From: Geodermatophilus tzadiensis
Lineage (GTDB): Bacteria; Actinomycetota; Actinomycetes; Mycobacteriales; Geodermatophilaceae
Assembly: GCF_003002915.1 (NCBI RefSeq)
Contig: NZ_PVTG01000002.1
Location: forward strand, 1-64,000
Length of the DNA stretch: 64,000 bases
Direction: 5' to 3'
The notes below the pieces were generated by a model. It saw nothing but the letters and a program-made list of their open reading frames with translations, ran no database searches and had not been told where the DNA came from. Shown piece after piece: positions 8,681-55,018 of the stretch. How positions within the stretch are numbered: position 1 is the stretch's first letter; every line of letters starts with the position of its first letter. The translations under genes were made by a program, and so were the position numbers.

Positions 8681-9631
8681 ATGGCTGATCAGCGCGGACG
8701 CGTCCTGCTGGCCGATCCCCGGGGCTACTGCGCCGGCGTCGACCGGGCGGTGGTCGCCGTCGAGCGGGCGCTGGAGATCCACGGCGCGCCGGTCTACGTC
8801 CGCAAGCAGATCGTCCACAACAAGCACGTCGTCGCCACCCTCGAGCGGCGCGGAGCGGTCTTCGTCGACGAGACCGACGAGGTGCCCGAGGGCTCGGTCG
8901 TCGTCTTCAGCGCCCACGGCGTCTCCCCGGCGGTGCACCAGGAGGCCGCGGCCCGGCAGCTGCGCACCATCGACGCCACCTGCCCGCTGGTCACCAAGGT
9001 GCACCAGGAGGCCAAGCGGTTCGCCCGCGACGACTACGACATCCTGCTGATCGGCCACCGCGGCCACGAGGAGGTCGAGGGCACCTCCGGCGAGGCGCCG
9101 TCGCACATCCAGCTCGTCGACGGGCCCGAGGACGTGGCGAACGTGCAGGTCCGCGACCCCGAGCGGGTGGTGTGGCTGTCGCAGACGACGCTGTCGGTCG
9201 ACGAGACCCTGGCGACGGTCGACCAGCTGAGGAACCGCTTCCCCGGCCTGCAGTCCCCGCCCAGCGACGACATCTGCTACGCCACCCAGAACCGCCAGCA
9301 GGCGGTCAAGCAGATGGCCGCCGAGTGCGACCTGGTCATCGTCGTCGGCTCGACCAACTCGTCGAACTCCGTGCGGCTGGTGGAGGTCGCCCTGGAGGCC
9401 GGCGCCCGCGCCTCGCACCTGGTCGACTACGCCGCCGAGATCGACCAGGCCTGGCTCGAGGGAGTCGGCACCGTCGGCGTCACCAGCGGGGCCTCGGTGC
9501 CCGAGGTGCTGGTCAGCGAGGTGCTCGACTGGCTGGCCGCGCGCGGCTACCCCGACGTCGAGACGGTCAAGGCCGCCGAGGAGCGGCTGGTCTTCGCGCT
9601 GCCCCACGAGCTGCGGCCCAAGCGCGGCTGA
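8681..9631 (+). CDS. ispH: 4-hydroxy-3-methylbut-2-enyl diphosphate reductase
   Basis: The 316-residue product is the last enzyme of the MEP pathway, reducing HMBPP to IPP and DMAPP with a [4Fe-4S] cluster. The three cluster cysteines are C17 (GYCAGV), C101 (ATCPLV) and C199 ([10 protein letters not shown]). The substrate-binding His residues H46 and H79, and the STNSSNS loop near 225, are also present. Length is typical. The gene converges with the DUF6542 gene across a strong terminator. It probably has a leaderless promoter. Confidence 0.97.
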
Positions 9632-9638
9632 CCCGCCC

Positions 9639-9690
9639 CGGACAGCAGCAGGGCCCCCTCCCGGTCGGGAGGGGGCCCTGCTGCTGTCCG
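9639..9690. terminator. Strong bidirectional terminator
   Basis: Perfect 24-base arms (9639-9662 and 9667-9690) with a four-base loop lie seven bases after the ispH stop and before the stop of the convergent DUF6542 gene. It is among the longest perfect hairpins in the window. Confidence 0.9.
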
Positions 9691-9705
9691 GTCAGTTCGG
9701 TGCCT

Positions 9706-10431
9706 TCACCGGCGGGCGGCCCAGCGGATCACGGCGACCACCAGCGCGACGCCGGTGGCGACGGCCATCGTGGGGAAGCCGCGGATGAGCACCGTGGCGA
9801 TCGTCGGCAGGTTCAGGCCGGCCGAGGGGGCGAGGCCCACGTTCACCGCGGCGACGGCGACGAACACCATCGGCGGGGCGACGACCGGGGTGAGCAGGTC
9901 GGGCTTGCGGACCAGCAGCGTCGCGACGGCCGAGCCCGCGACGAGCGTGACCAGGGTCAGCAGGCCCAGGCCGACGCCGAAGAAGGAGTCGACGGCGCCG
10001 CCGGCCAGGGTGAGGACGAAGACGCCGAGGACGGCGACCACCCCCCACAGCCGGCCGCCGGACTCCGCCGCGGACGGCGCGGTGCGGGAGCCCGTGCGCG
10101 GCGCGGGGCGCCCGGTCGGGCGGCTGTCCCGGCGGGCCGCGGTGTCGGCGTCGTCGCGGTCGGGCAGTGGCGGCACGGCGGCCGAGGGGATGCGCTGGGA
10201 CGGGCGGGCGCCGGACGGCCGGGGGCCGCCCGGGACGGGGCGGCCCGTCCCGCCGGCGCGGTCGGGAGCCGGCACCGCGGGACGGCCGCGCGGCGGGGGA
10301 GGGGGCACCGGCGGCCGGGCCATGCGCACGGGGCGGTCGGGGCCGGTCACGTCGGGGCGGAGGCTGCCGTGGTGGCGCGCCGGGCGCACTCCGCTGTCCC
10401 GCCAGGTGTCGGCTGCGCGCACCGAGGCCAT
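9706..10431 (-). CDS. DUF6542-like membrane protein
   Basis: The 241-residue product has about 130 disordered residues rich in P and R, then a compact hydrophobic domain with four likely transmembrane helices (RLWGVVAVLGVFVLTLAGGA, the GLGLLTLVTLVAGSAVATLL region, LLTPVVAPPMVFVAVAAV, and FPTMAVATGVALVVAVIRW). The pattern matches an actinobacterial family with no known role, which I believe is DUF6542. The ATG at 10431 has GGGGAGG five bases upstream; longer versions starting further upstream lack this. It stands alone between terminators. Confidence 0.7.
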   Translation of the reverse strand: MASVRAADTWRDSGVRPARHHGSLRPDVTGPDRPVRMARPPVPPPPPRGRPAVPAPDRAGGTGRPVPGGPRPSGARPSQRIPSAAVPPLPDRDDADTAARRDSRPTGRPAPRTGSRTAPSAAESGGRLWGVVAVLGVFVLTLAGGAVDSFFGVGLGLLTLVTLVAGSAVATLLVRKPDLLTPVVAPPMVFVAVAAVNVGLAPSAGLNLPTIATVLIRGFPTMAVATGVALVVAVIRWAARR

Positions 10432-10484
10432 GGCACCTCCCCGTCCGGACCGGTGGGCCCCGGGCGGGGCCGCTGTGAGCACTC

Positions 10485-10490
10485 ACGGTA
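10485..10490 (-). promoter_or_regulatory. Possible -10 element of the DUF6542 gene
   Basis: On the minus strand TACCGT fits TANNNT, about 54 bases before the ATG. Just downstream (10476-10487) lies the near-palindrome gtgagcactcac, a possible operator over the transcription start. The rest of 10432-10622 holds nothing else I can name. Confidence 0.35.
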
Positions 10491-10622
10491 GCGACGGGTG
10501 GGGGATCGGCGGGCCGTTTCCCGGTGTCGGACCTCGACACGTCTCCCCGCCGATTTGGCAACTCTGGGTGGGGAGTGGGGGAGGTGTGACGGACGGGACG
10601 GGCGGGGTGCGGCCCGGGCGGG

Positions 10623-11807
10623 TCAGCCGTCCCGCGTCCAGCGCAGGGGGCGCACCTGGTCGTCGGTGTGGTCGTCGGCCCGGTCGTCGGCGGGGTCGCG
10701 CTCGGGCAGCAGCGTCCGCTCGGGCAGCGCGGGGCGGGTGACGGGCACGACGAGGTCGCCGGCGACGTCGCCCGCGGGGTCGTCGGCGGGGCGCAGCGTG
10801 CGGACCACGGCCTCGACCGCCGGCGGCGTCGGCACCGGGGTCTCGCCGACGCCGAGGTCGTCGAAGCGCCGGGCGGCGGCGAGCACGGAGCGCTCGTAGG
10901 AGCCGACCGTCTCGTTGTAGCGGGCGAGCGTGGCGCCCAGCGCCGAGCCCAGCCGGGTGAGGTGGCCCGACAGCGTGGTCAGGCGGGCGTGCAGCCGTCG
11001 GCCGACCTCGATGACCTGGTCGGCGTCGCGGGCCAGCCGCTCCTGCCGCCACGAGTGGGCCACCGTGCGCAGCAGCGCCAGCAGCGTGCTGGGCGTGGCG
11101 ATGACGACGTCGCGGCCGAAGCCGTACTCGAGCAGGCCGGGCTCGGCCTCCAGCGCGGTGGTGAGGAACCCGTCGGAGGGCACGAACAGCACGGTGAACG
11201 GCGCCGCCGGGCGGAAGGCGGTGGGATAGCGGCGCGCGGCGAGCTGGTCGACGTGGGTGCGCAGCTGCCGGGCGTGCGCGGCGACCCGCTGCGCCTTGAC
11301 CGTCTCGTCGGGCGCCTGCACGGCCTCGATGTAGCCGGTGAAGGGCACCTTCGCGTCGACGACCACCTGCCGCCCGTCGGAGAGGGTGACCACCAGGTCG
11401 GGGCGGACGCCGGCGCCCTCGTCGTTGGTGGACGACGGCTGCTCGACGAAGTCGCAGTGCTCGAGCAGGCCGGCCACCTCGACCACCCGGCGCAGCTGCA
11501 CCTCGCCCCAGCGGCCGCGCACGTGCGGCGTCCGCAGCGCGGTCACCAGCGCCGCCGTCTCCTGGCGCAGCATCGCGCTGGTCTGCCCGACGGTGCCCAT
11601 CTGCTCCCGCAGCTCGCCGTGCGCGGTGGCCCGGGCCTGCTCCATGCCGGCGAGCAGCCGGTGCAGGTGGTCGATCGACTCGTGCAGCGGGTCGAGCCCC
11701 GGGTCGGCCGGCCGGCGGCGCGCGAGCAGCGCGACCACCCCGAGCGTGACGGCCGCCCCCAGCAGCACCCCGAAGAGCAGGCCCAGCAGGAGGGAGGCGG
11801 CGTCCAC
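10623..11807 (-). CDS. rmuC: DNA recombination protein RmuC
   Basis: The product is about 394 residues. An N-terminal membrane anchor (LLLGLLFGVLLGAAVTLGVV) is followed by a helical segment and the RmuC domain, with VRGRWGEVQLRRVVEVAGLL, GVRPDLVV, VVDAKVPF and FVPSDGF as family hallmarks, then a coiled-coil tail. RmuC proteins limit inverted-repeat recombination; the domain is related to PD-(D/E)XK nucleases. The GTG at 11807 puts the anchor at the N-terminus, though no strong ribosome site precedes it, and an in-frame start at 11861 cannot be excluded. It lies downstream of the ogt hairpin on the same strand. Confidence 0.9.
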   Translation of the reverse strand: MDAASLLLGLLFGVLLGAAVTLGVVALLARRRPADPGLDPLHESIDHLHRLLAGMEQARATAHGELREQMGTVGQTSAMLRQETAALVTALRTPHVRGRWGEVQLRRVVEVAGLLEHCDFVEQPSSTNDEGAGVRPDLVVTLSDGRQVVVDAKVPFTGYIEAVQAPDETVKAQRVAAHARQLRTHVDQLAARRYPTAFRPAAPFTVLFVPSDGFLTTALEAEPGLLEYGFGRDVVIATPSTLLALLRTVAHSWRQERLARDADQVIEVGRRLHARLTTLSGHLTRLGSALGATLARYNETVGSYERSVLAAARRFDDLGVGETPVPTPPAVEAVVRTLRPADDPAGDVAGDLVVPVTRPALPERTLLPERDPADDRADDHTDDQVRPLRWTRDG

Positions 11808-43261: not shown

Positions 43262-44230
43262 GTGAGCTGGCTGGTCACCGGGGGCGCCGGGTACGTCGGG
43301 GCGCACGTCGTGCGCGCCATGGTGGCGGCGGGGGAGGACGTCGTCGTGCTCGACGACCTGTCGACCGGCGACGCCGACCGGCTGGCCGGGCTGCCCGGCG
43401 TGCCGCTGGAGGTCGGCTCCGTGCGCGACCGCGGGATGGTCCGGCGGGTGCTGCGCGAGAACGGCGTGACCGGGGTGGTGCACCTGGCGGCCAAGAAGCA
43501 GGTCGCCGAGTCGGTGGCCGACCCGCTGCTGTACTGGGCCGAGAACGTCGAGGGCCTGGTCGCGCTGCTCGAGGGCTGCCGCGCCAAGGGCGTCACCCGC
43601 TTCGTGTTCTCCTCCAGCGCCTCGGTGTACGGCACGCCCGACGCCGAGCGGGTCGACGAGGACACCGTCTGCCGCCCGCTGTCGCCCTACGGCCGCACCA
43701 AGCTGGCCGGTGAGGACCTGCTGCGCGACTGCGCCGCCTGGGGGCTGGCCGCCACCAGCCTGCGCTACTTCAACGTGGCCGGTGCGGCGGCTCCCGAGCT
43801 CGGCGACCGGGGGACGGCGAACCTGGTGCCGTTGGTCTTCGCCGCCCTCGACGCCGGCCGGCCGCCCCAGCTGTTCGGCGACGACCACCCGACACCCGAC
43901 GGCAGCCCGGTGCGCGACTTCGTGCACGTCTCCGACGTCGCCGACGCGCACGTGGCCGCGGCCCGCGCGCTGGCCGCCGGCCGGCCCGGCGGCACGTACA
44001 ACGTCGGCCGCGGCGAGGGCAGCAGCGTGCGGGAGGTGCTGCGCGTCGTCGCCGAGGTCACCGGCGGGGACACCACGCCCGAGGTGGCCGGCCGCCGTCC
44101 CGGGGACCCGGCGCGCGTGGTGGCCGCCGTCGACCGGATCGGCCGCGACCTCGGCTTCCGGGCCACCCGCGACCTGCGGGAGATGATCACCAGCGCGTGG
44201 ACCGCCTGGCGGGCGCTGCAGCCCCTGTAG
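43262..44230 (+). CDS. galE: UDP-glucose 4-epimerase-like NAD-dependent epimerase
   Basis: The 322-residue product is an extended short-chain dehydrogenase with NAD motif TGGAGYVG near the N-terminus, catalytic SSSASVYG (Ser/Thr) and YGRTK (Tyr-x3-Lys), plus FNVAGA and VRDFVHVSDVADAH typical of UDP-galactose/glucose epimerases. It interconverts UDP-sugars for envelope polysaccharides. The GTG at 43262 gives the normal short N-terminus. Substrate specificity among UDP-hexoses cannot be read directly. Single gene with its own terminator. Confidence 0.88.
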   Translation: MSWLVTGGAGYVGAHVVRAMVAAGEDVVVLDDLSTGDADRLAGLPGVPLEVGSVRDRGMVRRVLRENGVTGVVHLAAKKQVAESVADPLLYWAENVEGLVALLEGCRAKGVTRFVFSSSASVYGTPDAERVDEDTVCRPLSPYGRTKLAGEDLLRDCAAWGLAATSLRYFNVAGAAAPELGDRGTANLVPLVFAALDAGRPPQLFGDDHPTPDGSPVRDFVHVSDVADAHVAAARALAAGRPGGTYNVGRGEGSSVREVLRVVAEVTGGDTTPEVAGRRPGDPARVVAAVDRIGRDLGFRATRDLREMITSAWTAWRALQPL

Positions 44231-44242
44231 TGCCCCTTCGGA

Positions 44243-44283
44243 CGGTCGTGCTCTGCCCACGGAGGCGGGGCAGAGCACGACCG
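44243..44283. terminator. Bidirectional terminator
   Basis: Perfect 16-base arms (44243-44258 and 44268-44283) with a nine-base loop end both galE and the minus-strand cluster that finishes with the VOC gene. Confidence 0.88.
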
Positions 44284-44292
44284 GGCTCCGGG

Positions 44293-44688
44293 CTAGAACG
44301 CGTCCCCGGTGCGCCAGGCCATCTCCTGCAGGGTCAGCGTGTTGCCGTCGGGGTCGGCGAACCAGGCGTAGCGGACCCCGCCGCCGACGTCGACGACCTC
44401 GCCGACCTCCACCCCGCGGGCCACCAGGTCGGCGCGGGCCGCCTCGATGTCGGGGACCACGAGGTGCAGGCCGCGGACGGTGCCGGGCGCGGCGTCGTCG
44501 TAGGCGGGCACGCCGGTGCCGAAGCCGAGGGAGCAGGCCGAGCCCGGCGGGGTCACCTGGACGACGCGGACGCCGTCGGCCGGCCGCACGTCGACGTCCT
44601 CGGTGAAGCCGAGCCGGTCGACGTAGAACGCCTTGGCGCGGTCGACGTCGGCGACCGGGACCGGCACCAGTTCCAGCTTCATGTCCAC
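44293..44688 (-). CDS. VOC/glyoxalase superfamily protein
   Basis: The 131-residue product has two beta-alpha-beta-beta-beta units of the vicinal-oxygen-chelate fold: LELVPVPVADVDRAKAFYVD and RGLHLVVPDIEAARADLVAR, ending in DPDGNTLTLQEM with a candidate metal glutamate. It may be an isomerase, dioxygenase or resistance protein. The GTG start lies 58 bases after the stop of the deacetylase gene with no terminator between, so it is probably the last gene of the inositol-glycoside cluster. AGGAG lies six bases upstream. Confidence 0.85.
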   Translation of the reverse strand: MDMKLELVPVPVADVDRAKAFYVDRLGFTEDVDVRPADGVRVVQVTPPGSACSLGFGTGVPAYDDAAPGTVRGLHLVVPDIEAARADLVARGVEVGEVVDVGGGVRYAWFADPDGNTLTLQEMAWRTGDAF

Positions 44689-44746
44689 GGGGTGCTCCTG
44701 TGCAGTGAGGGGGCGTCGCAGTCCAGACCCCCGGTCGCGGCGCGAG

Positions 44747-45454
44747 TCATCGGCGCGCGGCGAGCTCCCGGGCGCCGGCGTCGGCGAGGACCACCTCGGG
44801 CAGGCCGGCCAGCGCCGTCCGCATCTGCTCCGGCCCGCCGAACTGGAAGCCGAGCTGCGTGGCGTAGCAGGCGCAGGCGTCGGCCCGCCGGTCGAGGTCC
44901 TGCGGCAGCTCGAGCGGCGTCAGCCCGGCGGGCAGTTCCGGCCCCGGCACGGCGTCCGGGTCGCGCAGCACGTAGGGCGAGTCCCGCCACCACAGCACCG
45001 GGCGGCCGGTCCCGGCGACGGCGCGCAGCACCTGCAGGTGGTCGACGTGCCCGCCCAGCGCCTGCGGGGCCAGCCACAGGTCGCCGGGCAGGCCGGTCAG
45101 CGCCGCCCGCACGTCCTCCCACACGTCGTCGTCCTCGCGCACGCCGGCGAACAGCTCCGCCGCGCTCTCGTAGCCGCGGTGCGGGGCCTCGCGCAGGTCC
45201 AGGTGCAGCGGCGTCGCCCCCAGCACGGCCATCGCGGCGGCGTCCTCGTCGCGGCGCAGGGCCATGTAGTCGACGTCGGCGGGCAGTCCCTTGTCGAGCT
45301 GGCAGGCCAGTGCGAACCCCTCCGGGTCGGGCACGCTGCGGGTGAAGCAGGTGACCACCGTGACCTCGTGCCCGGCGTCGGCCAGCGCGGCCAGCGTGCC
45401 GCCCACGGAGAACGCGGCGTCGTCGAGGTGCGGGCTGACCGCGGTCACCCTCAC
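44747..45454 (-). CDS. PIG-L family N-deacetylase
   Basis: The 235-residue product has the zinc-binding PIG-L signatures SPHLDDAAFSVGG (6-18) and GGHVDH (134-139), with RRDEDAAAM between. Family members remove acetyl from N-acetylglucosamine linked to inositol (MshB, PIG-L) or malate (BshB). Its GTG overlaps the stop of the glycosyltransferase gene, so deacetylation directly follows glycosyl transfer, as in mycothiol synthesis. No mshA-like housekeeping context is adjacent; the other genes of the run argue for a distinct product. Confidence 0.9.
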   Translation of the reverse strand: MRVTAVSPHLDDAAFSVGGTLAALADAGHEVTVVTCFTRSVPDPEGFALACQLDKGLPADVDYMALRRDEDAAAMAVLGATPLHLDLREAPHRGYESAAELFAGVREDDDVWEDVRAALTGLPGDLWLAPQALGGHVDHLQVLRAVAGTGRPVLWWRDSPYVLRDPDAVPGPELPAGLTPLELPQDLDRRADACACYATQLGFQFGGPEQMRTALAGLPEVVLADAGARELAARR

Positions 45455-46659
45455 AGCAGGTGCGCGGCCGACCGGAACCGGCAGGAGAGGTCGACCTCCG
45501 GCGGCATCGTCCAGCCGGTGGACGGCGTCGTCCCCGCCACGTCCCGGTAGACGGTGTCGATCGAGCGGGCCAGCACCGGCCACGAGTAGAGCCGGCGCAC
45601 CTCCTCCAGCGCCGTGCCCGCCAGCCGCTCCCGCAGCGGGCGGTCGCCGAGCAGCCGGTCCAGCGCGGACCGCAGCCCGGCGACGTCACCCGGCTCGTGC
45701 AGCAGGCCGTTCTCGTCGTGGCGCAGGCAGTCGACGACGCCGACGCTGTCGGTGCTCACCGTGGGCAGCCCGCTGGCCATCGCCTCGAGCAGCGTGTTGG
45801 AGAACCCCTCGCTGTAGGTGGGGCTGACGAAGACGTCGGCCGAGCGGTACACCGCCGGCGCCTCGCCGGGCGGCACGTAGCCGAGGAACGTCGTCCGGTC
45901 GTCGGCGCGCGCCCTCGCCTCGTCCAGGTCCGGGCCGATGCCCGAGACCACCAGCCGGACGCCGTCGGGCAGCGCCTCGAGCAGGTCGAGCACGCCCTTG
46001 CGGCGGTCGACGCGGCCGTGGAACAGCAGCACCGGCGGGTCCTGCAGCGCGCCCAGCGGCCGCTCGGCCGGCGTGAACCGGCGGGTGTCGGTGGCGCCGG
46101 GGACGATCGTGAACCGCGCCGGGTCGCTGCCCAGGTTGCCGACCACCTCGTCGCGGAAACTGGCGCTGCCGATGAGCACGGCCGACGAGGCGTCGACGAC
46201 GGTGCGCATCGCGTGCGCGTGGGTGGCGCAGCAGGTGCCCACCCAGTGCCCGTCGCCGCCCTGGATGCTCACCACGGCCGGCAGCCCGGTCTCCCGCGCG
46301 GCGGCCAGCACCGCCAGCCCCGGCGGGTAGCCGTACTGGGCGTGCAGCACGTCGAAGGGCCGCTCGGCGTGCAGCGCCAGCACCGTGCGGACGATCTCGG
46401 CGATGTCGCCCTCCCAGTCGGCGGGGACGACGGTCTCGCCGCGGCTGGGCAGCGCGCGCACCTCGACGCCGGCCGGCACGCGGTCGGGCGGGGGCGGGCC
46501 GCCGCCGTAGACGCGGGTCCCGGCCTCGTCGTCGCGGTACTGGCTGACCAGCACCACCTCGTGACCGAGCGCGACGAGCTCGCGCAGCAGGTTCTCCGCG
46601 TAGACGCTCATCCCGCTGACCGCGGGCCAGTAGCGCCGGCTGACGAAGCAGGTCCTCAC
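45451..46659 (-). CDS. GT4 family glycosyltransferase
   Basis: The 402-residue product is a GT-B retaining glycosyltransferase with an N-terminal acceptor domain (RYWPAVSGMSVYAENLLREL), donor-domain strings VLLFHGRVDRRKGVLDLLEA and the EX7E motif in SEGFSNTLLEAMASG that binds the nucleotide sugar. The family includes MshA, which joins GlcNAc to inositol-3-phosphate. With Ins-P synthase at the head of the same cluster and a PIG-L deacetylase next, an inositol acceptor is likely but unproven. Both ends overlap neighbours by four bases. Confidence 0.9.
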   Translation of the reverse strand: MRTCFVSRRYWPAVSGMSVYAENLLRELVALGHEVVLVSQYRDDEAGTRVYGGGPPPPDRVPAGVEVRALPSRGETVVPADWEGDIAEIVRTVLALHAERPFDVLHAQYGYPPGLAVLAAARETGLPAVVSIQGGDGHWVGTCCATHAHAMRTVVDASSAVLIGSASFRDEVVGNLGSDPARFTIVPGATDTRRFTPAERPLGALQDPPVLLFHGRVDRRKGVLDLLEALPDGVRLVVSGIGPDLDEARARADDRTTFLGYVPPGEAPAVYRSADVFVSPTYSEGFSNTLLEAMASGLPTVSTDSVGVVDCLRHDENGLLHEPGDVAGLRSALDRLLGDRPLRERLAGTALEEVRRLYSWPVLARSIDTVYRDVAGTTPSTGWTMPPEVDLSCRFRSAAHLL

Positions 46660-47522
46660 GCGCCCTCGGCCTCCCTCAGCGTCGCGATCGAGCGGGGCAC
46701 CATCTCGTGCGCCCGGTGCCCGTCGCGGGACAGCTCCAGCGTCACCAGCCGGTCGAACGACGCCTCGCGCAGCGCCCGCAGCACCGCGGGCAGGTCGACG
46801 TCGCCCTCGTCGAGCGGCAGGTGGTCGTGCACGCCGCGGCGCATGCCCTCGACGGCCACGGTGCCCAGGTGCGACGCGAAGCGGGCGACCGCCTCCTCGG
46901 GCGCGTACGCGCCGGACACCACGCAGTGACCGGTGTCGAGCGCCAGCGTGATGCCGGGCGCCGCCGCGGCGAGCCGGGCCCAGTCGTCGCAGTCCTCGAC
47001 CAGCATCCCGGGCTCGGGCTCGACGGCCAGCGCGTAGGAGCGCCCGCCGTGGCTGTCGGCCAGCGCGCGCACCCCGTCGGTGAACCAGCCCCACGCGGCG
47101 TCGCGGTCGACGCCCGGCCTGGGCACGCCGGCCCAGAAGCTCACCGCCTCCGCACCCAGCACCTCCGCCAGGTCGCACGCCAGCCGCAGGTAGGCCAGCC
47201 GCCGGGCCCGTCCCTCGGCCGACGCGGTGACGAGTGTCGGCTCGTGCTTGGCCCGCGGGTCGAGCAGGAACCGGGCGCCGGTCTCCACCACCACGCCGAG
47301 GCCGAGCTCGTCGCAGCGGGCCCGCACCCCCTCTGCCTGGGCGAAGGCGTCGGGCGCGAACGGGTCGAGGTGCACCACGTCGAGGGTGAGCGCCACCCCG
47401 GCGTAGCCGCAGTCGGCGAGGAAGGGCAGGGCGTCGGACAGCCGGTGCGAGGTGAGCCCGTTGGTGTTGTAGGCGTACCGGAGCCTGCCCCGTCCCTCGC
47501 GTGACCTCGCGAGCTCGGTCAC
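46656..47522 (-). CDS. Xylose-isomerase-like TIM barrel protein
   Basis: The 288-residue product is of the AP-endonuclease-2/sugar isomerase type. Strand motifs include RLRYAYNTNGLT, VVVETGARFLLD, ALAVEPEPGML (metal Glu), LALDTGHCVV (Asp, His) and VTLELSRDGH. Relatives interconvert inososes, keto-sugars or hydroxypyruvate. In this cluster it may isomerise a keto-inositol made by the Gfo/Idh enzyme. Its GTG overlaps the YcaO stop. Confidence 0.85.
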   Translation of the reverse strand: MTELARSREGRGRLRYAYNTNGLTSHRLSDALPFLADCGYAGVALTLDVVHLDPFAPDAFAQAEGVRARCDELGLGVVVETGARFLLDPRAKHEPTLVTASAEGRARRLAYLRLACDLAEVLGAEAVSFWAGVPRPGVDRDAAWGWFTDGVRALADSHGGRSYALAVEPEPGMLVEDCDDWARLAAAAPGITLALDTGHCVVSGAYAPEEAVARFASHLGTVAVEGMRRGVHDHLPLDEGDVDLPAVLRALREASFDRLVTLELSRDGHRAHEMVPRSIATLREAEGA

Positions 47523-48982
47523 GAGGCCAGCACCTCGGCGACCACGTGCCGGCCCGGCTCCCGGTACAGCGCGTACAGCGCCCCCACCCGCCGCTGCGCG
47601 CCCGCGCGGTCGAACCACGCCGGCCCGCCCAGGCGCTCCTCGGCCGCGGGCGTCAGGTGCACCCGCGCCCAGCCGCCGGGGTCGGCGCCGACGACGGCCA
47701 GACCCTCATCGTGCTCGACGAGCCGGCGCACGCCGCGCTCGCCGATCCGGCCGTAGGACATCGTCTCGACCTCCAGGCCGGTCACCAGCACCTTGGCCGC
47801 GACGGCGTCGCCGACCGAGGGCTGCAGCTCCACCAGCACGTCGTGGCCGGCGCCCTGCACGGCGCCGGTGACGTGCGCGTGCAGGTCGTCCCCGCGCCAG
47901 GTGGACAGGCCGGCCAGCGGGACGGTGGACCGCCGCGACAGCACGGTGTCCTGCAGCAGGTCCACCAGCGCGGCGGTGCCCATCCGGGTCCAGGAGAGCA
48001 TCGCCTGCAGCGCGCGGTCCTCCTCGACCAGCCGCTCCGGCGGGTGCCCGCCGCGCCAGTGCTCGAGGTAGCCCGACGGCGTCGCCGGCAGCACGACGTC
48101 GAACGGCCCGTGCATGAATGCCTTGCGGCTGCGCGCCGAGGCGAACTCGTGCAGCGCCTTGCGGACGGCGGTGTCGCGGTCGGGGTGCGCCGCCTCCCCG
48201 CACGCGGTGGCCATCACCGGCACCGGCTCGGAGCCGTCGCGCGAGCAGCCCACCGCGTAGACGTCGACCACGCCGAACTCCGTGGACGCCAGCTTGACCA
48301 CGACGTCGATGCCCGCGGCGTCGAGCCGGTCGAGCAGCGCGAGCGCGTCGGGGTCGGTGAGCCCGTCGAGGTCGACGACGACGCCGCGGTCCATCGCGCG
48401 GAAGGCGGTGGCGTTGCCGTCGCGCTGCAGCACCTCCAGCAGCGCGTGGGTGACCGCCCGGTCGGCGTCGAAGGCCGCGCCCTGGCCGTTGGTGATGACC
48501 GTGGTCAGCCAGCCTCCGGGCGGGGGAGCGCCGGGCAGGTCGTCGGGCGCGGAGGCGACCAGCTCGGCGGGCACCTGCACCGTCTCGCCGTCGCGCAGCC
48601 GGGTCATCGGCAGCCACTGCAGGACACGGTCGTCGTCGTACGGGCTGCCCGCCTCCAGGCACAGCTCGCGCGGGTCGGCGACCCGGTGGCGGCCGTGCCG
48701 GCGGGTCATCTCGGCGAACGAGCCCTCCTCGCGGGAGACGCCCTGGTGCGCGCGCAGCGACAGGGCCATCTCGGCCATCTCGCCCATCGCGCCGGTGCGG
48801 GCCTCCTCGCGGGTGGCGCCGTAGCCCAGCCCGCTGCCGCCGGGGTGCAGCTCGGACGGCGGCAGCACCGCGGAGTGCAGCGGCACGTCGAGGACGTCGA
48901 TGCCCGCGATGGCGAAGTCCTCGACCGGCGTCGGGAACGACTCCCGGTAGCGCTGGGACGGGGTCGTCCGCGTGGCGGTCAC
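47519..48982 (-). CDS. YcaO family ATP-dependent enzyme
   Basis: The 487-residue product has the YcaO catalytic core. An ATP/Mg-binding glutamate pair appears in GAMGEMAEMAL (E68, E71), then TNGQGAAFDADRAVTHALLE with E183/R187 in LLEVLQRDG, and GEAAHPDRDTAVRKALHEF with E279. YcaO enzymes activate an amide oxygen by phosphorylation, making azolines, amidines or thioamides. They act mostly on ribosomal peptides, but some act on proteins or tRNA-linked chemistry. No precursor peptide, E1-like partner or TfuA is adjacent, and 4-base overlaps leave no room for one. A small-molecule substrate is therefore plausible. Confidence 0.88.
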   Translation of the reverse strand: MTATRTTPSQRYRESFPTPVEDFAIAGIDVLDVPLHSAVLPPSELHPGGSGLGYGATREEARTGAMGEMAEMALSLRAHQGVSREEGSFAEMTRRHGRHRVADPRELCLEAGSPYDDDRVLQWLPMTRLRDGETVQVPAELVASAPDDLPGAPPPGGWLTTVITNGQGAAFDADRAVTHALLEVLQRDGNATAFRAMDRGVVVDLDGLTDPDALALLDRLDAAGIDVVVKLASTEFGVVDVYAVGCSRDGSEPVPVMATACGEAAHPDRDTAVRKALHEFASARSRKAFMHGPFDVVLPATPSGYLEHWRGGHPPERLVEEDRALQAMLSWTRMGTAALVDLLQDTVLSRRSTVPLAGLSTWRGDDLHAHVTGAVQGAGHDVLVELQPSVGDAVAAKVLVTGLEVETMSYGRIGERGVRRLVEHDEGLAVVGADPGGWARVHLTPAAEERLGGPAWFDRAGAQRRVGALYALYREPGRHVVAEVLAS

Positions 48983-49953
48983 AGCTCGGCCAGGGGGACG
49001 GGGGCGGCGTCCGGCGGCCCGGACAGCAGCCGCTGCACCAGGTGCACGACGTGGTCGGTGGTGACGCCGGGGACCATCTCGAACGGCGTCGCGACCACCT
49101 CGAAGTCCAGCTCCGCGACGACGGCGAGCATCTCCCGCAGCTCGCCGTGCGACAGCGGGATCTGCGCGTGGAACGCCTTGTGCGCGCTCAGCGCGACCGG
49201 CTTCCCGTCGTCGGCCAGGTCCACCTTGAGCGAGTCGCCGCAGAACAGGACCCCGCGGCGGGAGTCGTGCAGCACCGAGTGGCCGGGGAAGTGGCCGCCG
49301 GTGCGGTGCAGGGTGAGGTCGGGGGCGAGTGCCAGCACGTCGTCGGCCGGCCAGGTGACCCGGAAGGCCTTGGTCCAGACCAGGTCGTGCACGTTGACGC
49401 AGACCACCCGCGGCTCGAGCTCCTGCTGCAGCTGCCACAGCGCGCCGTAGCCGTGCACGTGGCTCGAGGCGAGCACGGGGAAGCCGCCCTTCTCGGCGGC
49501 CATCCGGCGCAGCTCGGCGAGCATGTCGGCGGTGTACCAGGGCGCGCACTCGAAGCCGACCAGGCCGATGTCGGTCTCGATCACCCAGCCGCGGCTGTCC
49601 AGGCCGAAGCGCGGCTCGGTGCCGAACTCGGTGACGCCGTCGACCGGGGCCGGCCGCCAGAACCCGGTGACCAGCTCGTCGGCCTCCTTGGCGGGGACGA
49701 ACTCGAAGCCGTGCTCGGGCAGCGCGTTGCGGACGTCGGCGCACACCGGGCAGACCACCGGTCCGGGCGCCGGCCAGCGCTGCCAGTGCCCGCAGTTGGT
49801 GCAGGCGTAGGCCGGCAGGTCGGGCAGCAGGCCGCGGTAGGGGTTGGTGTCGACACCTCCCTGACGAGCCTGGCTGGACACGTGCCGCGCGCCGTCGTCG
49901 GCGGCGGGGTCGGTGGCCCGGTCGATGGCAGCGGGCACGTCGGGCGAGCTCAC
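48979..49953 (-). CDS. MBL-fold protein with N-terminal zinc ribbon
   Basis: The 324-residue product has a rubredoxin-like ribbon (YACTNCGHWQRW, then VVCPVCADVRN, about 48-78) followed by a metallo-beta-lactamase fold. The usual HxHxDH motif is replaced by SSHVHGYGALWQL; later metal elements GGHFPGHS and FCGDSL (Asp) remain. So it may bind one metal, or iron for a redox role. Position between YcaO and a dehydrogenase suggests a tailoring or sulfur/oxygen-handling step. Overlaps both neighbours by four bases. Confidence 0.8.
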   Translation of the reverse strand: MSSPDVPAAIDRATDPAADDGARHVSSQARQGGVDTNPYRGLLPDLPAYACTNCGHWQRWPAPGPVVCPVCADVRNALPEHGFEFVPAKEADELVTGFWRPAPVDGVTEFGTEPRFGLDSRGWVIETDIGLVGFECAPWYTADMLAELRRMAAEKGGFPVLASSHVHGYGALWQLQQELEPRVVCVNVHDLVWTKAFRVTWPADDVLALAPDLTLHRTGGHFPGHSVLHDSRRGVLFCGDSLKVDLADDGKPVALSAHKAFHAQIPLSHGELREMLAVVAELDFEVVATPFEMVPGVTTDHVVHLVQRLLSGPPDAAPVPLAEL

Positions 49954-50936
49954 GGGGTCCCTCTCTCCAGAGCGGTGAGGAGCAGGCGGTGCAGGGCGAG
50001 GTCGCGGGCCGGGTCGTACGGCCACCGAGCGCGGCCCGCGACCGCGTCGGTGAAGGCGGCGAACTGCGCGGTGAACGGCGGGGTGTCGGCGAACGGCACG
50101 TCCACCGGGTCGGGGCGGTAGAGCGTCAGCGAGCCTCCCGCCGTCTGCCCCATCGTGTCGACGGCGACCGCCATGCCGCGGGTGCCCACGACCTCCAGGC
50201 GGCGGCGCGGGAGCGCGTCGGGGGTGTTGAACGCGACGTGCAGGCTGACCAGCACGCCGCCGTCGGTGCTGCCGGTCAGCAGCGCGCCGTCGTCGACGCC
50301 GTAGCCGTGCACGCGGGTCTGCAGCAGCGCCGACAGCGTGGTGACGTCCTCGCCGAGCAGCGTGCCGGTCAGGTCCAGGCCGTGCGGGGCCAGGTCGATC
50401 GCGGCACCGCCGCCGGCGCGGGCGGGGTCGACGCGCCAGTTGTCGTGCGGCCGGCCGTCGGGCGTCCAGTCGCCGGGCAGCCAGCAGCAGTAGACGATCC
50501 GCACCGCGGTGACGGTGCCCAGCTCGGCCACCAGCTCCCGCAGCCGCACGTGGGCGGGGTGCCAGCGCTGGTCGTAGGCGGTGCCGAGCAGCACGCCGGC
50601 CGTGGCGCACGCGTCCACCAGCGCCCGCGCGTCGGCGACGTCGGCGGCCAGCGGCTTCTCGCACAGCACCGCCTTCCCGGCCGCGGCGGCCACCTCGACC
50701 AGCGGCCGGTGCCCGGCGTTCGGGACGGCGACGTAGACCGCGTCCAGGCCCGGGGTGGCCAGGAACTCGGCGAGGTCGGTGCTGCGCCGGGCGCCCTCGA
50801 CCGGCATCCGCTCCATCGCGGCGGCGTCGAGGTCGTGCAGCGCCACCACCCGCGCGTCGGGCACGGCGAGCAGCGCGCGCAGCGCGTGGTCGCGAGCCAC
50901 CCACCCGCACCCGGCGACGCCCCACCCGACGGTCAC
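49950..50936 (-). CDS. Gfo/Idh/MocA family NAD(P)-dependent oxidoreductase
   Basis: The 328-residue product has an N-terminal Rossmann motif (WGVAGCGWVARDHALRALL), the conserved CEKPLA (catalytic lysine) and the GGGAAIDLAPHGLDL metal/catalytic region of the sugar/inositol dehydrogenase family. It likely oxidises a hydroxyl of an inositol or sugar to a ketone. The GTG at 50936 has a GGGGGG ribosome site; the alternative at 50954 would start inside the hairpin. It is the first gene after that hairpin, so may begin a second transcript of the cluster. Confidence 0.87.
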   Translation of the reverse strand: MTVGWGVAGCGWVARDHALRALLAVPDARVVALHDLDAAAMERMPVEGARRSTDLAEFLATPGLDAVYVAVPNAGHRPLVEVAAAAGKAVLCEKPLAADVADARALVDACATAGVLLGTAYDQRWHPAHVRLRELVAELGTVTAVRIVYCCWLPGDWTPDGRPHDNWRVDPARAGGGAAIDLAPHGLDLTGTLLGEDVTTLSALLQTRVHGYGVDDGALLTGSTDGGVLVSLHVAFNTPDALPRRRLEVVGTRGMAVAVDTMGQTAGGSLTLYRPDPVDVPFADTPPFTAQFAAFTDAVAGRARWPYDPARDLALHRLLLTALERGTP

Positions 50937-50953
50937 GCCGGCCCCCCGCTGCA

Positions 50954-51010
50954 CGAGATCGGCGCTCTCGTGGCGATCGGCGCCTGATGGCCACGAGAGC
51001 GCCGATCTCG
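50954..51010 (-). terminator. Perfect 21-base palindrome inside the cluster
   Basis: Arms 50954-50974 and 50990-51010 match exactly around a 15-base loop. It sits in the 91-base gap between the methyltransferase stop and the dehydrogenase start, the only gap in a run of otherwise overlapping genes. It probably attenuates or terminates, splitting the cluster into a three-gene and a six/seven-gene part. Confidence 0.8.
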
Positions 51011-51027
51011 CAGGGAGGACCGGGGAC

Positions 51028-52053
51028 TCACCATGCCTCCGGGAGGTCGACGAGCAGCCGGCGACGGGCGGCGTCGGCGGGCAGCGGGTCGGGCCAGCGC
51101 GCCGGCAGGTACGCCGAGCGCGGGCCGTACTCGGCGGCGTAGCGCTCGCTGGGCCAGGTCAGCACGCCGTCGCGGTAGAGCGGGTTGGGCGACAGCGGCG
51201 GCAGCGGCTCGCCGAGGTCGGCCGGGGCGGGCCCCAGCGGGTCGCCGGCCACCAGCGCCACCGCCTCGCTGGCGTGCAGGTCGGCGGGCGCGGACGGGCG
51301 CGGCGGACGGCCCTCGAGCAGCGACCGGGTGAGCTCGTCGTCGTCGTAGAGCAGGCCGGTGCCGAGCACCTCGGCGTAGCCCTCCGGTGTCAGCGGCTGC
51401 CCGTGCGGGTCGGCCACGTGCGCGTGCCCGACGACGACGGTCCCGCCGTCCCCGGCCAGCGCGCGCATCGCCGCCGCGGCCGCGGGCTTGTCGCGCAGGA
51501 AGTAGAAGGCGTCGTGGCACATGACGTAGGCCGGGGTGCCGACGGCGAGGTCGGGCGCCGCGGTCAGGTCGGCGCACACGTAGCGCGCGCCGGGGCAGAC
51601 GAACCGCCGCGCCAGCCAGAGCTTGGCCCACACGACGTCGACGCCGAGCAGGTCGCCCGCGCCCCGCCGCGACAGCTCGCGCAGGTGCGCGCCGGTGCCG
51701 CAGGCGACGTCGACCACCGGCCGCCCGCCGGGCCAGTGCGCCTGCAGCAGCGCGAGCCCCGCCAGGTGGGTCGGGTCGGACCAGCGGTGGGCGAAGTAGT
51801 CGGCCACCCGCCCCATGCCGAGCAGCGCCATCGCCTCGCGCAGCGTCCGCGCGGCCGGGACGCGGGCCAGCTGATCGGGCGGGGGCGGCGGCTCGGTCCA
51901 CCAGTCGTCGGCGTCGGCGAACAGCAGCACCCGCGCGCGGTCGGTCTCCCCGGCGGCGAGCAGCCCGGTGACCTCGGCGCGCAGGTCGTCGCGGCCGGCG
52001 CGGGCGAAGGGGATCCCGTCCACGACGGGCGCGTCGAGGAGCAGGCCGGTCAC
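51028..52053 (-). CDS. Class I SAM-dependent methyltransferase
   Basis: The 341-residue product has SAM motif I VVDVACGTGAHLREL (113-127), acidic motif II GVDVVWAKLW and ARYVCADLTAA, with FYFLRDKP after the fourth strand. An N-terminal extension of about 100 residues is unlike small-molecule Methyltransf_11 proteins and may form the acceptor lid. Overlaps the upstream HD-like gene (GTGA). It presumably methylates an O or N of the cluster's product. Confidence 0.85.
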   Translation of the reverse strand: MTGLLLDAPVVDGIPFARAGRDDLRAEVTGLLAAGETDRARVLLFADADDWWTEPPPPPDQLARVPAARTLREAMALLGMGRVADYFAHRWSDPTHLAGLALLQAHWPGGRPVVDVACGTGAHLRELSRRGAGDLLGVDVVWAKLWLARRFVCPGARYVCADLTAAPDLAVGTPAYVMCHDAFYFLRDKPAAAAAMRALAGDGGTVVVGHAHVADPHGQPLTPEGYAEVLGTGLLYDDDELTRSLLEGRPPRPSAPADLHASEAVALVAGDPLGPAPADLGEPLPPLSPNPLYRDGVLTWPSERYAAEYGPRSAYLPARWPDPLPADAARRRLLVDLPEAW

Positions 52054-52964
52054 AGCCCGGCCGCCGCCAGGACGTCGAGGTGGTAGCTCTGCACCGGCCC
52101 GGCGTGCACCAGCTCCAGGTCGTCGAGCGCCTGCGACGCGGTGAACGCCGCCGCCCGCGCGTGGTGGTGCACCTGCAGCACCCGGTCGAGGACGTCGGCG
52201 GCGTGGAAGGCCCGCGCCTCCGGGACGTCGGCGCCCGGCCGCAGCGCCAGCACCTCGCGCAGCCGGCCGGCCAGCGGGCCGGGCAGCGCGGCCAGCTCGC
52301 GCTCCTCCAGCGTGGCCATCACCCGCTCCAGCGCGTCGCCGAGCAGCACCTCCCCGGCGAACCCCGCGTCGGGCAGCACGACGTTGTGCAGGTGGTGTCC
52401 CAGGCCCAGCAGGAACGGCGCCACCGGGTCGGCGCCGACGACCGGTGCCACCAGCGCGCCGTAGACCGCGACGGTGAGGCAGTGGTCCCCGTGGCTCTCC
52501 GGCGGCTCGATCACGATCCGCGCGACGCCGGGCGCGGTGGCCCCGGCGCGCGGCTGGCCGTTGAGCGCCGCGGCGAGGTCCGGCGCGGAACCGGTCGCCG
52601 GCAGCGGCCCCAGCGCCGCCCGCAGCCGCTCGCGCAGCTCCGGGTCCAGCGGGCCGGCGACCTCGTCGAAGCCCCGGTGCAGCACCTCGAGCGCCTCGGC
52701 GTCCGACAGCCCGGCCGTCGTCAGCACCCCGGCGTCGATGCCGGCCAGCCGGGCGCGGGCGACGGCGGCCGCCGTCTCCGACTCCGCGACGGCGGCGACG
52801 TCCTCGCCGGCCACCAGCCGCGCCCACGCGCGGGCGAAGGCCTGCTCGGCCAGCGAGCCGGGGACGCCGGAGACCCGGACGCGCTTGGCGTCGCCGATCT
52901 CGGCGAGCAGCGGTCGCAGCCCGGCGAGCGCCTGCAGCGTCCCGGGGGAGGCGAGCGCGGTCAC
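52050..52964 (-). CDS. HD-like hydrolase candidate
   Basis: The 304-residue product has a helical N-terminal half and a C-terminal half with histidine clusters resembling a degenerate HD phosphohydrolase: SHGDH (157-161), GHHLHN (189-194) and HAADVLDRVLQVHHH (254-268). A true HD doublet is absent (HH instead). By position next to inositol-phosphate synthase it could remove phosphate from inositol phosphate or its glycoside, a step carried out by an unassigned phosphatase in mycothiol synthesis. This is inference. A relation to EboA-like proteins is a weaker alternative. Confidence 0.55.
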   Translation of the reverse strand: MTALASPGTLQALAGLRPLLAEIGDAKRVRVSGVPGSLAEQAFARAWARLVAGEDVAAVAESETAAAVARARLAGIDAGVLTTAGLSDAEALEVLHRGFDEVAGPLDPELRERLRAALGPLPATGSAPDLAAALNGQPRAGATAPGVARIVIEPPESHGDHCLTVAVYGALVAPVVGADPVAPFLLGLGHHLHNVVLPDAGFAGEVLLGDALERVMATLEERELAALPGPLAGRLREVLALRPGADVPEARAFHAADVLDRVLQVHHHARAAAFTASQALDDLELVHAGPVQSYHLDVLAAAGL

Positions 52965-54184
52965 CGGGAGGGAGTGCCGGCGGCCAGCCAGTCGAGCAGC
53001 GCGGACTCCTGCCGGTGGAAGGCGTGCTCGGGCACGCTCCCGTCGGCGGTCATCGGGGCCTTGAAGAACCAGCCCAGCTGCCGCTGCACCCCACCCTCGC
53101 CGCGCTGTTGCGCGAGGTCGGTGAGCCGGGCCAGCTCCAGCGCCAGCGGGGCGGCGAGGATGGAGTCGCGGCACTGGAAGTCGACCTTGACCTGCATGCG
53201 CTGGCCGAGGAAGCCGACCAGGTCGATGGCGTCCCAGGCCTCCTTCTGGTCGCCGCGCGGCCGGTAGTAGTCGATGCGGACGACGTGGTCCTCGACGGGG
53301 TAGCCCAGGATCGAGTCGAGCACGCTGCCCTTGGTGTTCAGCTTGCTCGCCAGCGAGTCGGGGTCGTCGAGGGCCAGGCCGTCGCGGTTGCCGAGGATGT
53401 TGGTGGAGTACCAGCCCTCGACGGTCAGCGAGCGGGCGCGGAAGGCCGGCGCGAGGACGGTCTTCATCATCGTCTGGCCGGTCTTGCCGTCCTTGCCGGC
53501 GACCGGCACATCGCGGGCCTCGGCGAACGCGACCAGGGCCGGGACGTCGGCGGCCAGCGACGGCGTGAAGTTGACGTAGCCGACGCCCTCGGCGATCGCC
53601 GCGTAGGCGTAGACCATCGCCGGGGTGATGGCGCGGTCGTCGGCGTCGAGCCCGGCCTCGAACGCCTCGATCGTCTGCAGCGCCTCCGCCGCCGGGTCGG
53701 GCCAGCGCTCGGTGGAGGCCAGGTTGACCAGCACCAGGCCGTCGAGGGACTCCTCCTCGCGGAAGCGGCGCAGGTCGGCGCGGACGGCGTCGACCTGCGC
53801 GCGGCGCGTCTCGGCCAGGACGACGTTGCCGCCGGTGACGTTGCGGCAGAAGTCGGCGTCTCCGGCCGCCGGCCAGGGCGTCACGGACGACAGCGCCGGG
53901 CCGGCCTCCTCCAGCTGGCGGGAGTCGAGCACGGCGTGCTGCTCGGCGGCCTTGCGCAGGTCGGAGCCGTCGAGGTCCCACCCGCGGACGACCAGCGAGT
54001 CGTAGGACACCAGGCCGGTGGTCTCCTCGACCGGTCCGCCGGCGACCTGCAGCCCGGCGAGCGGCAGCCCGTCGGTCCCGGCCGCCCCGGTGCGGACCAG
54101 CTCCAGACCGGCGACGGCGGTCGTCGCGACCGCACCTCCCAGCCCGACCACAGCGACGCCGACACGACGGGACTCCTGCGACAA
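52961..54184 (-). CDS. Inositol-3-phosphate synthase
   Basis: The 407-residue product converts glucose-6-phosphate to inositol-3-phosphate with NAD. It has the NAD motif GLGGAVATT (14-22), VNFTPSLA, AGKDGKTGQTMMKT (catalytic lysines) and STNILGNRDGLAL, then NTKGSVL. The best start is a TTG at 54184, with GGGAGG five bases upstream, an unusual start codon; downstream in-frame GTG codons would cut the Rossmann strand. It heads the cluster, supplying its inositol. A separate housekeeping ino1 probably exists elsewhere for phosphatidylinositol and mycothiol. Confidence 0.9.
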   Translation of the reverse strand: MSQESRRVGVAVVGLGGAVATTAVAGLELVRTGAAGTDGLPLAGLQVAGGPVEETTGLVSYDSLVVRGWDLDGSDLRKAAEQHAVLDSRQLEEAGPALSSVTPWPAAGDADFCRNVTGGNVVLAETRRAQVDAVRADLRRFREEESLDGLVLVNLASTERWPDPAAEALQTIEAFEAGLDADDRAITPAMVYAYAAIAEGVGYVNFTPSLAADVPALVAFAEARDVPVAGKDGKTGQTMMKTVLAPAFRARSLTVEGWYSTNILGNRDGLALDDPDSLASKLNTKGSVLDSILGYPVEDHVVRIDYYRPRGDQKEAWDAIDLVGFLGQRMQVKVDFQCRDSILAAPLALELARLTDLAQQRGEGGVQRQLGWFFKAPMTADGSVPEHAFHRQESALLDWLAAGTPSR

Positions 54185-54391
54185 GACGACCTCCCACCCT
54201 CGACGGGTGGACCTCCGCCACCCCCCCGACCGAGCCTGGCACAGCGTCCGCGGCCTCGCCGGGTGAGCGCCAGATTCTCGCCCGCAACCGAGTGGCCCCC
54301 CGTCCTCTGTGCAGGTAGGGGTGTCCGGGAGGCCCCGCGGGCGGACGGCCCGGGCCAGGATGGAGCCCCGCCCACCCGAGAGGAGCCCGCC

Positions 54392-55018
54392 GTGACCGTG
54401 CCGCCCGCCGCCCAGTCCCAGCCCTCTGCCGCGATGGTCGTGCCGCGCTTCGCCGTGCGCCAGCGGATCACCGTGATGGTCAACCGCTACGAGGTCCGGG
54501 CCGTACAGCCTGACGGCAGCGAGGGCCACCTCCTGGCCATGGCCCAGCAGAAGCGGCTCAAGCTCAAGGAGGAGGTGGTGTTCACCGCCGACGAGGCGCG
54601 GACCCGCCCGGTGTTCTCCTTCCGGGCCCGCCAGCGGCTCGACGTGCACGCCGAGCACGACGTCTTCGACGAGTACGGGCAGGTGCTCGGCTACTTCCGC
54701 AAGCGGTTCGGCGCCAGCCTGCTGCGCTCGACCTGGGAGCTGTCGGTGCCCGGCCTGCAGGCGATCGGCCGGGAGCGGCGGCCGTTCCTGGCCATCCTGC
54801 GGCGCATCTGGGAGTTCATCCCCTACCTCGGCGACGTCTGGGTGCCCTTCGTCTTCCACTTCGACTTCGTCGACACCGCCACCGGCGCGCCGGTGCTCGT
54901 CGTGGAGCGGCGCAAGAGCATCCGCGACCGCTACGACGTGCACGTCCCCGACCCGCGCCTGGACTTCCGGGTGGCCGCCTCGATGGCCGTGGCCCTCGAC
55001 GCCCTGCAGAGCCGGTGA
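54392..55018 (+). CDS. LURP-one/tubby-like (scramblase-related) protein
   Basis: The 208-residue product has a beta-rich single domain with alternating strands: RQRITVMVNRYEVRAV, HLLAMAQQKRLKLKEEVVFT, DVFDEYGQVLGYFRKRFGAS and VLVVERRKSIRDRYDVHV. This matches the LURP-one-related/tubby C-terminal fold shared with phospholipid scramblases, which bind membrane lipids. The GTG has AGAGGAG seven bases upstream, and its stop overlaps the GH16-like gene start. Divergent from the inositol-phosphate synthase. Confidence 0.72.
   Translation: MTVPPAAQSQPSAAMVVPRFAVRQRITVMVNRYEVRAVQPDGSEGHLLAMAQQKRLKLKEEVVFTADEARTRPVFSFRARQRLDVHAEHDVFDEYGQVLGYFRKRFGASLLRSTWELSVPGLQAIGRERRPFLAILRRIWEFIPYLGDVWVPFVFHFDFVDTATGAPVLVVERRKSIRDRYDVHVPDPRLDFRVAASMAVALDALQSR

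Follow-up and report, generated by a model that had tools for sequence, protein, structure and literature searches.

The window analysed here, the first 64,000 nucleotides of contig NZ_PVTG01000002.1 of Geodermatophilus tzadiensis (assembly GCF_003002915.1), carries a cluster of nine genes that spans positions 44747-54184, all on the minus strand, and that includes an inositol-phosphate synthase, a GT4 glycosyltransferase, a PIG-L deacetylase and a YcaO enzyme. The reading frames were checked and are listed below with the E values of their Pfam matches and the short names used in the text.

52961 to 54184, minus strand: inositol-phosphate synthase (INO1), 407 aa (PF07994, 2.5e-62; PF01658, 5.9e-34)
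52050 to 52964, minus strand: HD-fold protein (HD), 304 aa, with HH..N in place of HD, a probable phosphohydrolase (profile matches to 2cqz, 1xx7 and 4dmb)
51028 to 52053, minus strand: class I methyltransferase (MT), 341 aa (PF13649, 3.7e-9)
49950 to 50954, minus strand: Gfo/Idh/MocA dehydrogenase (GFO), 334 aa, alternative start at 50936 (PF22725, 2.1e-24; PF01408, 7e-21)
48979 to 49953, minus strand: MBL-fold protein (MBL) with an N-terminal CxxC..CxxC zinc-ribbon-like stretch (PF00753, 1e-5, a weak match at 26 bits)
47519 to 48982, minus strand: YcaO, 487 aa, stand-alone (PF02624, 9.5e-49)
46656 to 47522, minus strand: xylose-isomerase-like TIM barrel (TIM), 288 aa, IolE/CbiR-like (PF01261, 3.7e-30)
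45451 to 46659, minus strand: GT4 glycosyltransferase (GT4), 402 aa (PF13692, 2e-30)
45454 to 45483, minus strand: C-terminal ten codons of GT4, CRFRSAAHLL and then stop, a near-invariant tail
44747 to 45454, minus strand: PIG-L family deacetylase (PIG-L), 235 aa (PF02585, 2e-13)
44293 to 44688, minus strand: VOC-family gene that adjoins the cluster, judged a non-member (VOC match in 1 of 80 relatives' loci)

All ten reading frames named in the original prediction, which was made from the letters of the window alone, lie at the place and on the strand it gave, and Pfam and NCBIfam back its family names for the inositol-phosphate synthase, methyltransferase, Gfo/Idh/MocA, MBL (weakly), YcaO, TIM barrel, GT4, PIG-L and VOC proteins. 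Its statement that all joins but two are four-base overlaps is exact: these occur at seven of the eight joins within the cluster (INO1/HD, HD/MT, GFO/MBL, MBL/YcaO, YcaO/TIM, TIM/GT4 and GT4/PIG-L), and the exceptions are gaps of 73 bases between MT and GFO and of 58 bases between PIG-L and the VOC gene. The VOC gene is present where it was placed, but we reject it as a cluster member, since among the 80 loci of relatives described below only L023 has a VOC match. INO1 begins with TTG; the next start, at 54151, would truncate its N-terminal NAD-binding stretch. A search of 44000-54600 revealed no terminator-like or sigma-70-like site, a weak test given that shuffling predicts only 0.7 and 0.1 such sites, and the 64-kb window has no tRNA or Rfam match.

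Relatives were collected by scanning genome contigs with a YcaO alignment, which gave 208, and the best 80 of the 208 were analysed. Four of these loci (L080, L082, L085 and L093) have the YcaO only and are excluded from the counts, which leaves 76 loci, many of them cut by contig ends. The nine genes are complete in 49 of the 76, and at least six are present in 68. Gene order, on which the original prediction had been made to depend beforehand, is kept in 49 of the 49 nine-gene loci; three loci with fewer than nine genes are out of order (L046, L049 and L068), the last owing to a second YcaO copy that gives the better match. The nine-gene loci belong to Actinomycetota, Pseudomonadota and Myxococcota (one locus, L067), with L100 unclassified, and shorter versions occur in an armatimonadete metagenome-assembled genome (L068), a planctomycete metagenome-assembled genome (L069) and a Hymenobacter plasmid (L162, Bacteroidota). 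Streptomyces, Micromonospora and myxobacteria are among the relatives that have the cluster. Eight of the nine genes, all but MBL, lie on plasmids of Methylobacterium aquaticum (pMaq22A_1p of the laboratory strain 22A) and M. bullatum, and a Roseomonas plasmid carries all nine; apart from these three and the Hymenobacter plasmid, no plasmid record has an HD match. Pairwise distances among the nine proteins correlate at 0.79-0.97 across 28 divergent loci, a comparison made with no species-tree control, so the co-divergence shows shared descent of the genes and not selection by itself. Given the kept order and the co-divergence across phyla, the nine genes almost certainly form one biosynthetic pathway that has been inherited together and transferred between phyla.

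The HD protein is the most specific marker of the cluster. It is found in 24 of 61 genomes (host included), 7 of 396 Actinomycetota genomes (host included) and 25 of 248 genomes of the family of Microvirga arabica (G061), and the distribution of the cluster is therefore patchy. One match within the 61 genomes, a 26% match in G042, turned out to be an ordinary HD hydrolase whose gene context is unrelated, and was set aside. In the Microvirga family the cluster is seen as far as the contigs reach at all 25 loci, with INO1 at 24 of them. Like the original prediction, which knew of no described pathway with this set, we recognised no published description of the nine genes in the open-licence PMC literature, within the viewed part of long result lists.

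The most constant members are HD, GFO, YcaO, GT4 and PIG-L. L049, L055, L070, L073 and L074 have neither MT nor space for it; the same is true of MBL in L083, L088, L089 and L096, and of TIM in L068, L069 and L098. Of the 23 Microvirga-family loci that could be judged, 22 have no MBL match between GFO and YcaO, and L097 retains INO1 and HD as fragments only. Actinomycetospora has TIM-GT4-PIG-L at a separate site, which in three genomes lies on the same contig as the rest and in a fourth on a different one. The INO1 slot itself can hold another enzyme: in L068 and L069 it is occupied by an AroB-like PRK06203 cyclase (549 and 483 bits; cut-off 333), a family into which EboD presumably falls and which has no counterpart in the window. 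These two loci are two of the three TIM-less loci, and the known AroB-like cyclase relatives give deoxy-keto rings directly; this suggests, from a tiny sample, that a deoxy-keto ring is made by two routes. The L069 genome has a PF07994 gene elsewhere, the L098 genome has neither a PF07994 nor a PRK06203 match over cut-off, and Goekera (L044) has no cyclase gene in the INO1 slot and no PF07994 match in its genome.

INO1 belongs to the inositol-phosphate synthase family by both of its domains, which score above cut-off (PF07994, 211.7 bits; PF01658, 116.9 bits); it is the only PF07994 match in the host genome and is distinct from the mycothiol Ino1 on contig C22. The name "HD-like" given in the original prediction holds in part: the protein has no Pfam or NCBIfam match at E 0.01, but a profile of 36 sequences weakly matches HD-type chains (2cqz, E 5e-4; 4dmb, "HD domain-containing protein 2", E 0.012). 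It has HH where those chains have HD, and H158, H161, H190, H191 and D257 are invariant in the 36 sequences; its closest named relative is that of G. dictyosporus (93%). The best NCBIfam matches of GFO are all far under cut-off (XylDh_Gfo6 at 103 bits, then IolG at 88 bits against a cut-off of 355), and its nearest structure in the PDB is 1,5-anhydrofructose reductase, with inositol 2-dehydrogenase likewise among the matches. The sole PDB match of TIM is an "Iole protein" (9zmu), and it scores 19 bits on the NCBIfam IolE model (cut-off 290). The MBL protein has SHVHGYG where HxHxDH, the usual motif of the fold, is expected. We also note that the C-terminus of the methyltransferase (window 51028-51060) is conserved, being R..LLDLPERW-like in the relatives printed.

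The likeness to the first steps of mycothiol synthesis, pointed out in the original prediction, is one of superfamily and logic (inositol-phosphate synthase, GT4 and PIG-L deacetylase) and is an analogy rather than kinship, as the scores on the mycothiol models are low: INO1 37 bits on TIGR03450 (cut-off 638), GT4 69 on TIGR03449 (cut-off 462.5) and PIG-L 17 on the MshB model (cut-off 224). The host has its own Ino1 (686 bits, contig C22) and MshA (637 bits, contig C1), and with such scores we reject membership in the mycothiol pathway. No MshC ligase or MshD acetyltransferase domain occurs in the ten genes, to which that search was confined. The best PDB matches of GT4 include BshA and MshA. 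A GT4-MshA profile alignment covers 351 columns, and its NDP-sugar (donor) half agrees; the segment of MshA Thr134, which we take to be phosphate-binding, is replaced in GT4 by SIQGGDGHWVGTCC, the Arg154 segment falls in a gap and Tyr110 is kept, on our assumption of the roles of these three residues. With the MshA-type acceptor region rebuilt in this way, the acceptor of GT4 is probably bound differently. Compared with mycothiol synthesis, then, the cluster has another inositol-phosphate synthase branch, a rebuilt GT4 acceptor region and an extra C-terminal tail, lacks MshC and MshD counterparts, and adds a YcaO, a dehydrogenase, a TIM barrel and a methyltransferase.

Other known systems resemble parts of the cluster. 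The mycosporine-like amino acid pathway (mysABCD) builds light-protecting compounds from a six-membered carbon ring by O-methylation and ATP-dependent replacement of oxygen by nitrogen. The cluster may share the ring, and O-methylation, the oxygen-to-nitrogen swap and light protection can be proposed for it; it has INO1 and not DDGS/EEVS, a YcaO and not an ATP-grasp enzyme, and GT4 and PIG-L in addition. As no DDGS/EEVS cyclase or ATP-grasp domain occurs among the ten genes, it is not a member of that pathway. Inositol catabolism also pairs a Gfo/Idh/MocA dehydrogenase (IolG) with a TIM barrel (IolE), but the cluster pair lies far below those equivalog cut-offs and sits beside a ring-making enzyme. 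The ebo cluster (EboA-F) includes a sugar-phosphate cyclase and a TIM-barrel protein (PMC5133447), and the AroB-like cyclase in L068 and L069 resembles the former. No YcaO, GT4 or PIG-L is described for the ebo set, L068 and L069 have no TIM barrel, and the window cluster is without domains of the TatD, UbiA and phosphodiesterase types of EboB, EboC and EboF (PMC5133447); with none of these three in the ten genes, ebo membership is rejected.

The YcaO protein is a clear member of its superfamily (PF02624, 166.9 bits; cut-off 25.7) and is the only YcaO of the host genome. The one solved chain that it matches is MJ1094 (6pe3), and its NCBIfam kin are of the McrA-glycine thioamidation type; it resembles these stand-alone enzymes in being a single YcaO with no E1-like or TfuA partner, and differs from them in sitting with sugar and cyclitol enzymes. 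No TfuA, E1-like or RRE partner was matched by Pfam or NCBIfam in the cluster, although RRE folds can escape these libraries. No separate precursor-peptide gene lies between the nine genes, where the largest gap is 73 bases; this holds for the spaces between members of the window cluster, the flanks and relatives having been left unsearched for small genes. An ordinary YcaO cluster for a ribosomally synthesised and modified peptide was therefore rejected. More than one YcaO copy per cluster occurs in two myxobacteria (L064:1735-4848 and L067:4401-8196) and in the armatimonadete (L068:6504-7970 and 10001-11470).

The four YcaO-only loci, from Microvirga and Aurantimonadaceae, at first looked like members of the family and were set aside because their genomes have neither HD nor GT4 (E 1e-60). 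In the YcaO tree they nest within the alphaproteobacterial cluster YcaOs beside Methylobacterium (support 99/95, and 99/93 with Methylobacterium); therefore the cluster YcaO or its descendants can persist without the cluster GT4. What lies beside these four genes was kept out of the evidence on the cluster. In all four a divergent sugar ABC transporter follows the YcaO, and in Microvirga the YcaO lies beside DHH, UvsE and two genes of the spore-photoproduct-lyase type (L080:2585-3703 and 6438-9787, and likewise L082).

The C-terminal tail of GT4 is near-invariant in every GT4 with an intact end that was examined. Its consensus in 28 non-redundant GT4s is C-R-F-R-x-x-P/A-H-L-L-stop, with zero entropy at C, H, L and L, and it follows a variable linker of mostly 2-3.3 bits (L050 and L059 were omitted from this calculation). 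It is present in 67 of 68 aligned rows, two of them as CRYL.. and CAFR.., the exception being L050, which ends at a contig edge. A motif search gave 80 matches, one per locus and each ending at a stop codon, with CRYR.. in Hymenobacter; some of these loci are second copies of one genome. The tail also occurs in all 21 Microvirga-family loci that include the GT4 end (four more are cut by the contig) and in L168-L170. In the listed solved GT4 matches (60 of 82) the alignment ends short of the tail. GT4 relatives have an invariant CC pair (C143/C144), and the tail may serve in docking, fold back onto this pair, or be a substrate.

Genes of light-damage repair lie near several clusters. All four Actinomycetospora loci examined (a count that excludes L084 and L086) have a gene of the spore photoproduct lyase family (SPL) after TIM-GT4-PIG-L and on its strand; in L165 this gene overlaps PIG-L by four bases. 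In Roseomonas, two SPL-type genes of the opposite strand lie 1.5-3.7 kb beyond PIG-L and UvsE precedes INO1 by about 10 kb, and in Rubrobacter marinus an SPL gene lies about 2.5 kb from the cluster. The end of L069 holds a fragment of another SPL type. In L168 a gene for a Fpg/Nei-type DNA glycosylase comes after PIG-L, and L169 has a 69% relative of it just past PIG-L; L170 was found to have none. Methylobacteria, to which the two plasmids with eight of the genes belong, are reported to make UVA-absorbing methylobamine (PMC9664959), a compound that also appears in the reference lists of PMC9664959, PMC8822675, PMC8210630 and PMC8561711.

For the flanks more generally, 276 open reading frames were called from 38 loci and 204 were scanned in batches of 108 and 96, leaving out six Geodermatophilaceae loci and L162, L163, L067 and L083; calling in such GC-rich DNA is crude and includes antisense frames. 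No Pfam family occurred in more than four of either batch. A Crp/Fnr-type regulator lies directly upstream of INO1 in seven Sphingomonas-type loci (L081:3986-4753, L090, L092, L094, L095, L099 and L101), with another about 2.6 kb upstream in the Hymenobacter locus, where bshB1 (bacillithiol deacetylase) also adjoins the cluster (L162:20380-21114). An MdoH-like glucan glycosyltransferase is near the cluster in six alphaproteobacterial loci (L163:21042-22604, L076, L083, L088, L052 and L054) and in L221, and both Methylobacterium plasmids have an LPG-synthase-TM family membrane protein past PIG-L (L160:21661-22788 and L161:21352-22539).

Our best and still tentative explanation is that the nine genes direct the synthesis of a protective, amino-glycosylated keto-cyclitol. 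Ins-P synthase would make inositol phosphate, from which the HD-fold protein would remove the phosphate; oxidation of the ring by the Gfo/Idh/MocA enzyme would give an inosose, which the IolE-like TIM barrel would dehydrate to an enolisable deoxy-keto cyclitol, and the methyltransferase may cap an oxygen. GT4 would then attach N-acetylglucosamine and PIG-L would free its amine, while the YcaO, with ATP, might exchange the oxygen of an amide or vinylogous-amide carbonyl for nitrogen or sulfur. In L068 and L069 the ring would come from the AroB-like cyclase, with the TIM barrel missing. The end product would be a small, polar, amino-glycosylated keto-cyclitol that might protect from light or desiccation. 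That it is a glucosaminyl cyclitol is probable. A deoxy-keto ring, in favour of which stand the IolE protein as the only solved match of TIM and the sub-threshold IolG match of GFO, is quite possible, with the balance falling just short of it, and photoprotection as the role is held more loosely than either. A bolder version seems to us rather unlikely: here the product would be a widely shared, sunscreen-like metabolite that represents a new structural class, with methylobamine possibly one member, and the YcaO would make it by acting on a small glycosylated cyclitol or on the C-terminal peptide of GT4 itself. To our knowledge all characterised YcaO enzymes act on peptides or proteins, and one that acts on a small glycosylated cyclitol would be the first of its kind.

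Several observations weigh against the keto-cyclitol pathway and its protective role. Both the donor and the acceptor assigned to GT4 are guesses; each of MT, MBL and TIM is lacking in some loci; and neither the Goekera genome nor the L219 cluster has an INO1, so that the ring precursor may have another source. No MT was found on the Hymenobacter plasmid, where GFO and GT4 are each in two frames, through decay or sequence error. A YcaO with neither GT4 nor HD in Microvirga and Aurantimonadaceae fits a strictly pathway-bound step poorly. As to light, 17 SPL genes (E 1e-60) are present in 16 of 32 cluster genomes or records, and the other 16 have none (four of the 32 are plasmid records only). 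In favour of the light link, three of the 17 are no more than about 6 kb away from cluster genes, in Rubrobacter marinus, Actinomycetospora lemnae and Roseomonas, where 0.12-0.17 are expected; the resulting P(>=3) of 0.0003-0.0007 is too kind, since the proximity in Rubrobacter and Roseomonas had been noticed before counting. No SPL or UvsE gene occurs in the stretches around the 25 Microvirga-family loci, and no SPL gene in the window or in the other loci whose surroundings were examined, Sphingomonas, Streptomyces and Geodermatophilus among them.

The same scaffold could instead be a diffusible pseudodisaccharide antibiotic or signal, in style like fortimicin or kasugamycin and not a light protectant. 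An inositol-derived ring with an aminosugar is the plan of several aminocyclitol antibiotics, and the presence of the cluster in Streptomyces, Micromonospora and myxobacteria would suit such a role. We consider it somewhat unlikely: no resistance gene, exporter or regulator recurs across the set among the scanned flank reading frames, the widest neighbours are only the Crp/Fnr-type and MdoH-like genes, and the cluster has spread well beyond the usual antibiotic genera. It is improbable that the GT4 decapeptide is the substrate of the YcaO, as an enzyme-fused precursor in the manner of borosins, modified at the Cys/Arg backbone. The invariant residues after a variable linker, the stop codon that ends every match, the action of the characterised YcaOs known to us on peptides or proteins and the match to MJ1094 all speak for it, but YcaO descendants persist in four genomes without the GT4, no RRE or partner domain is seen with Pfam, and docking or folding back onto the CC pair explains the same conservation.

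A second low-molecular-weight thiol, made in the fashion of mycothiol, appears slightly more improbable still; INO1, GT4 and PIG-L do share superfamilies with Ino1, MshA and MshB, but the ten genes hold no ligase- or acetyltransferase-type domain, the host already has Ino1 and MshA, and GT4 does not keep the MshA acceptor loop. The order kept and the co-divergence seen across phyla refute the view that the nine genes are chance neighbours of common enzyme families with no functional unit, and we give it a negligible chance.

Since bacteria of three phyla retain the whole gene set, and those of three others a reduced version of it, the product must be useful. New here are the near-invariant GT4 tail, the cyclase swap with absence of TIM, the SPL neighbours and the carriage on Methylobacterium plasmids. 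The conserved tail offers a sharp and cheap target for a first experiment. If the amino-glycosylated keto-cyclitol pathway is real, it would provide a new cyclitol-aminosugar scaffold, extend YcaO chemistry past the peptide and protein substrates that we know of, and make light or desiccation protection in bacteria of exposed habitats accessible to genetics.

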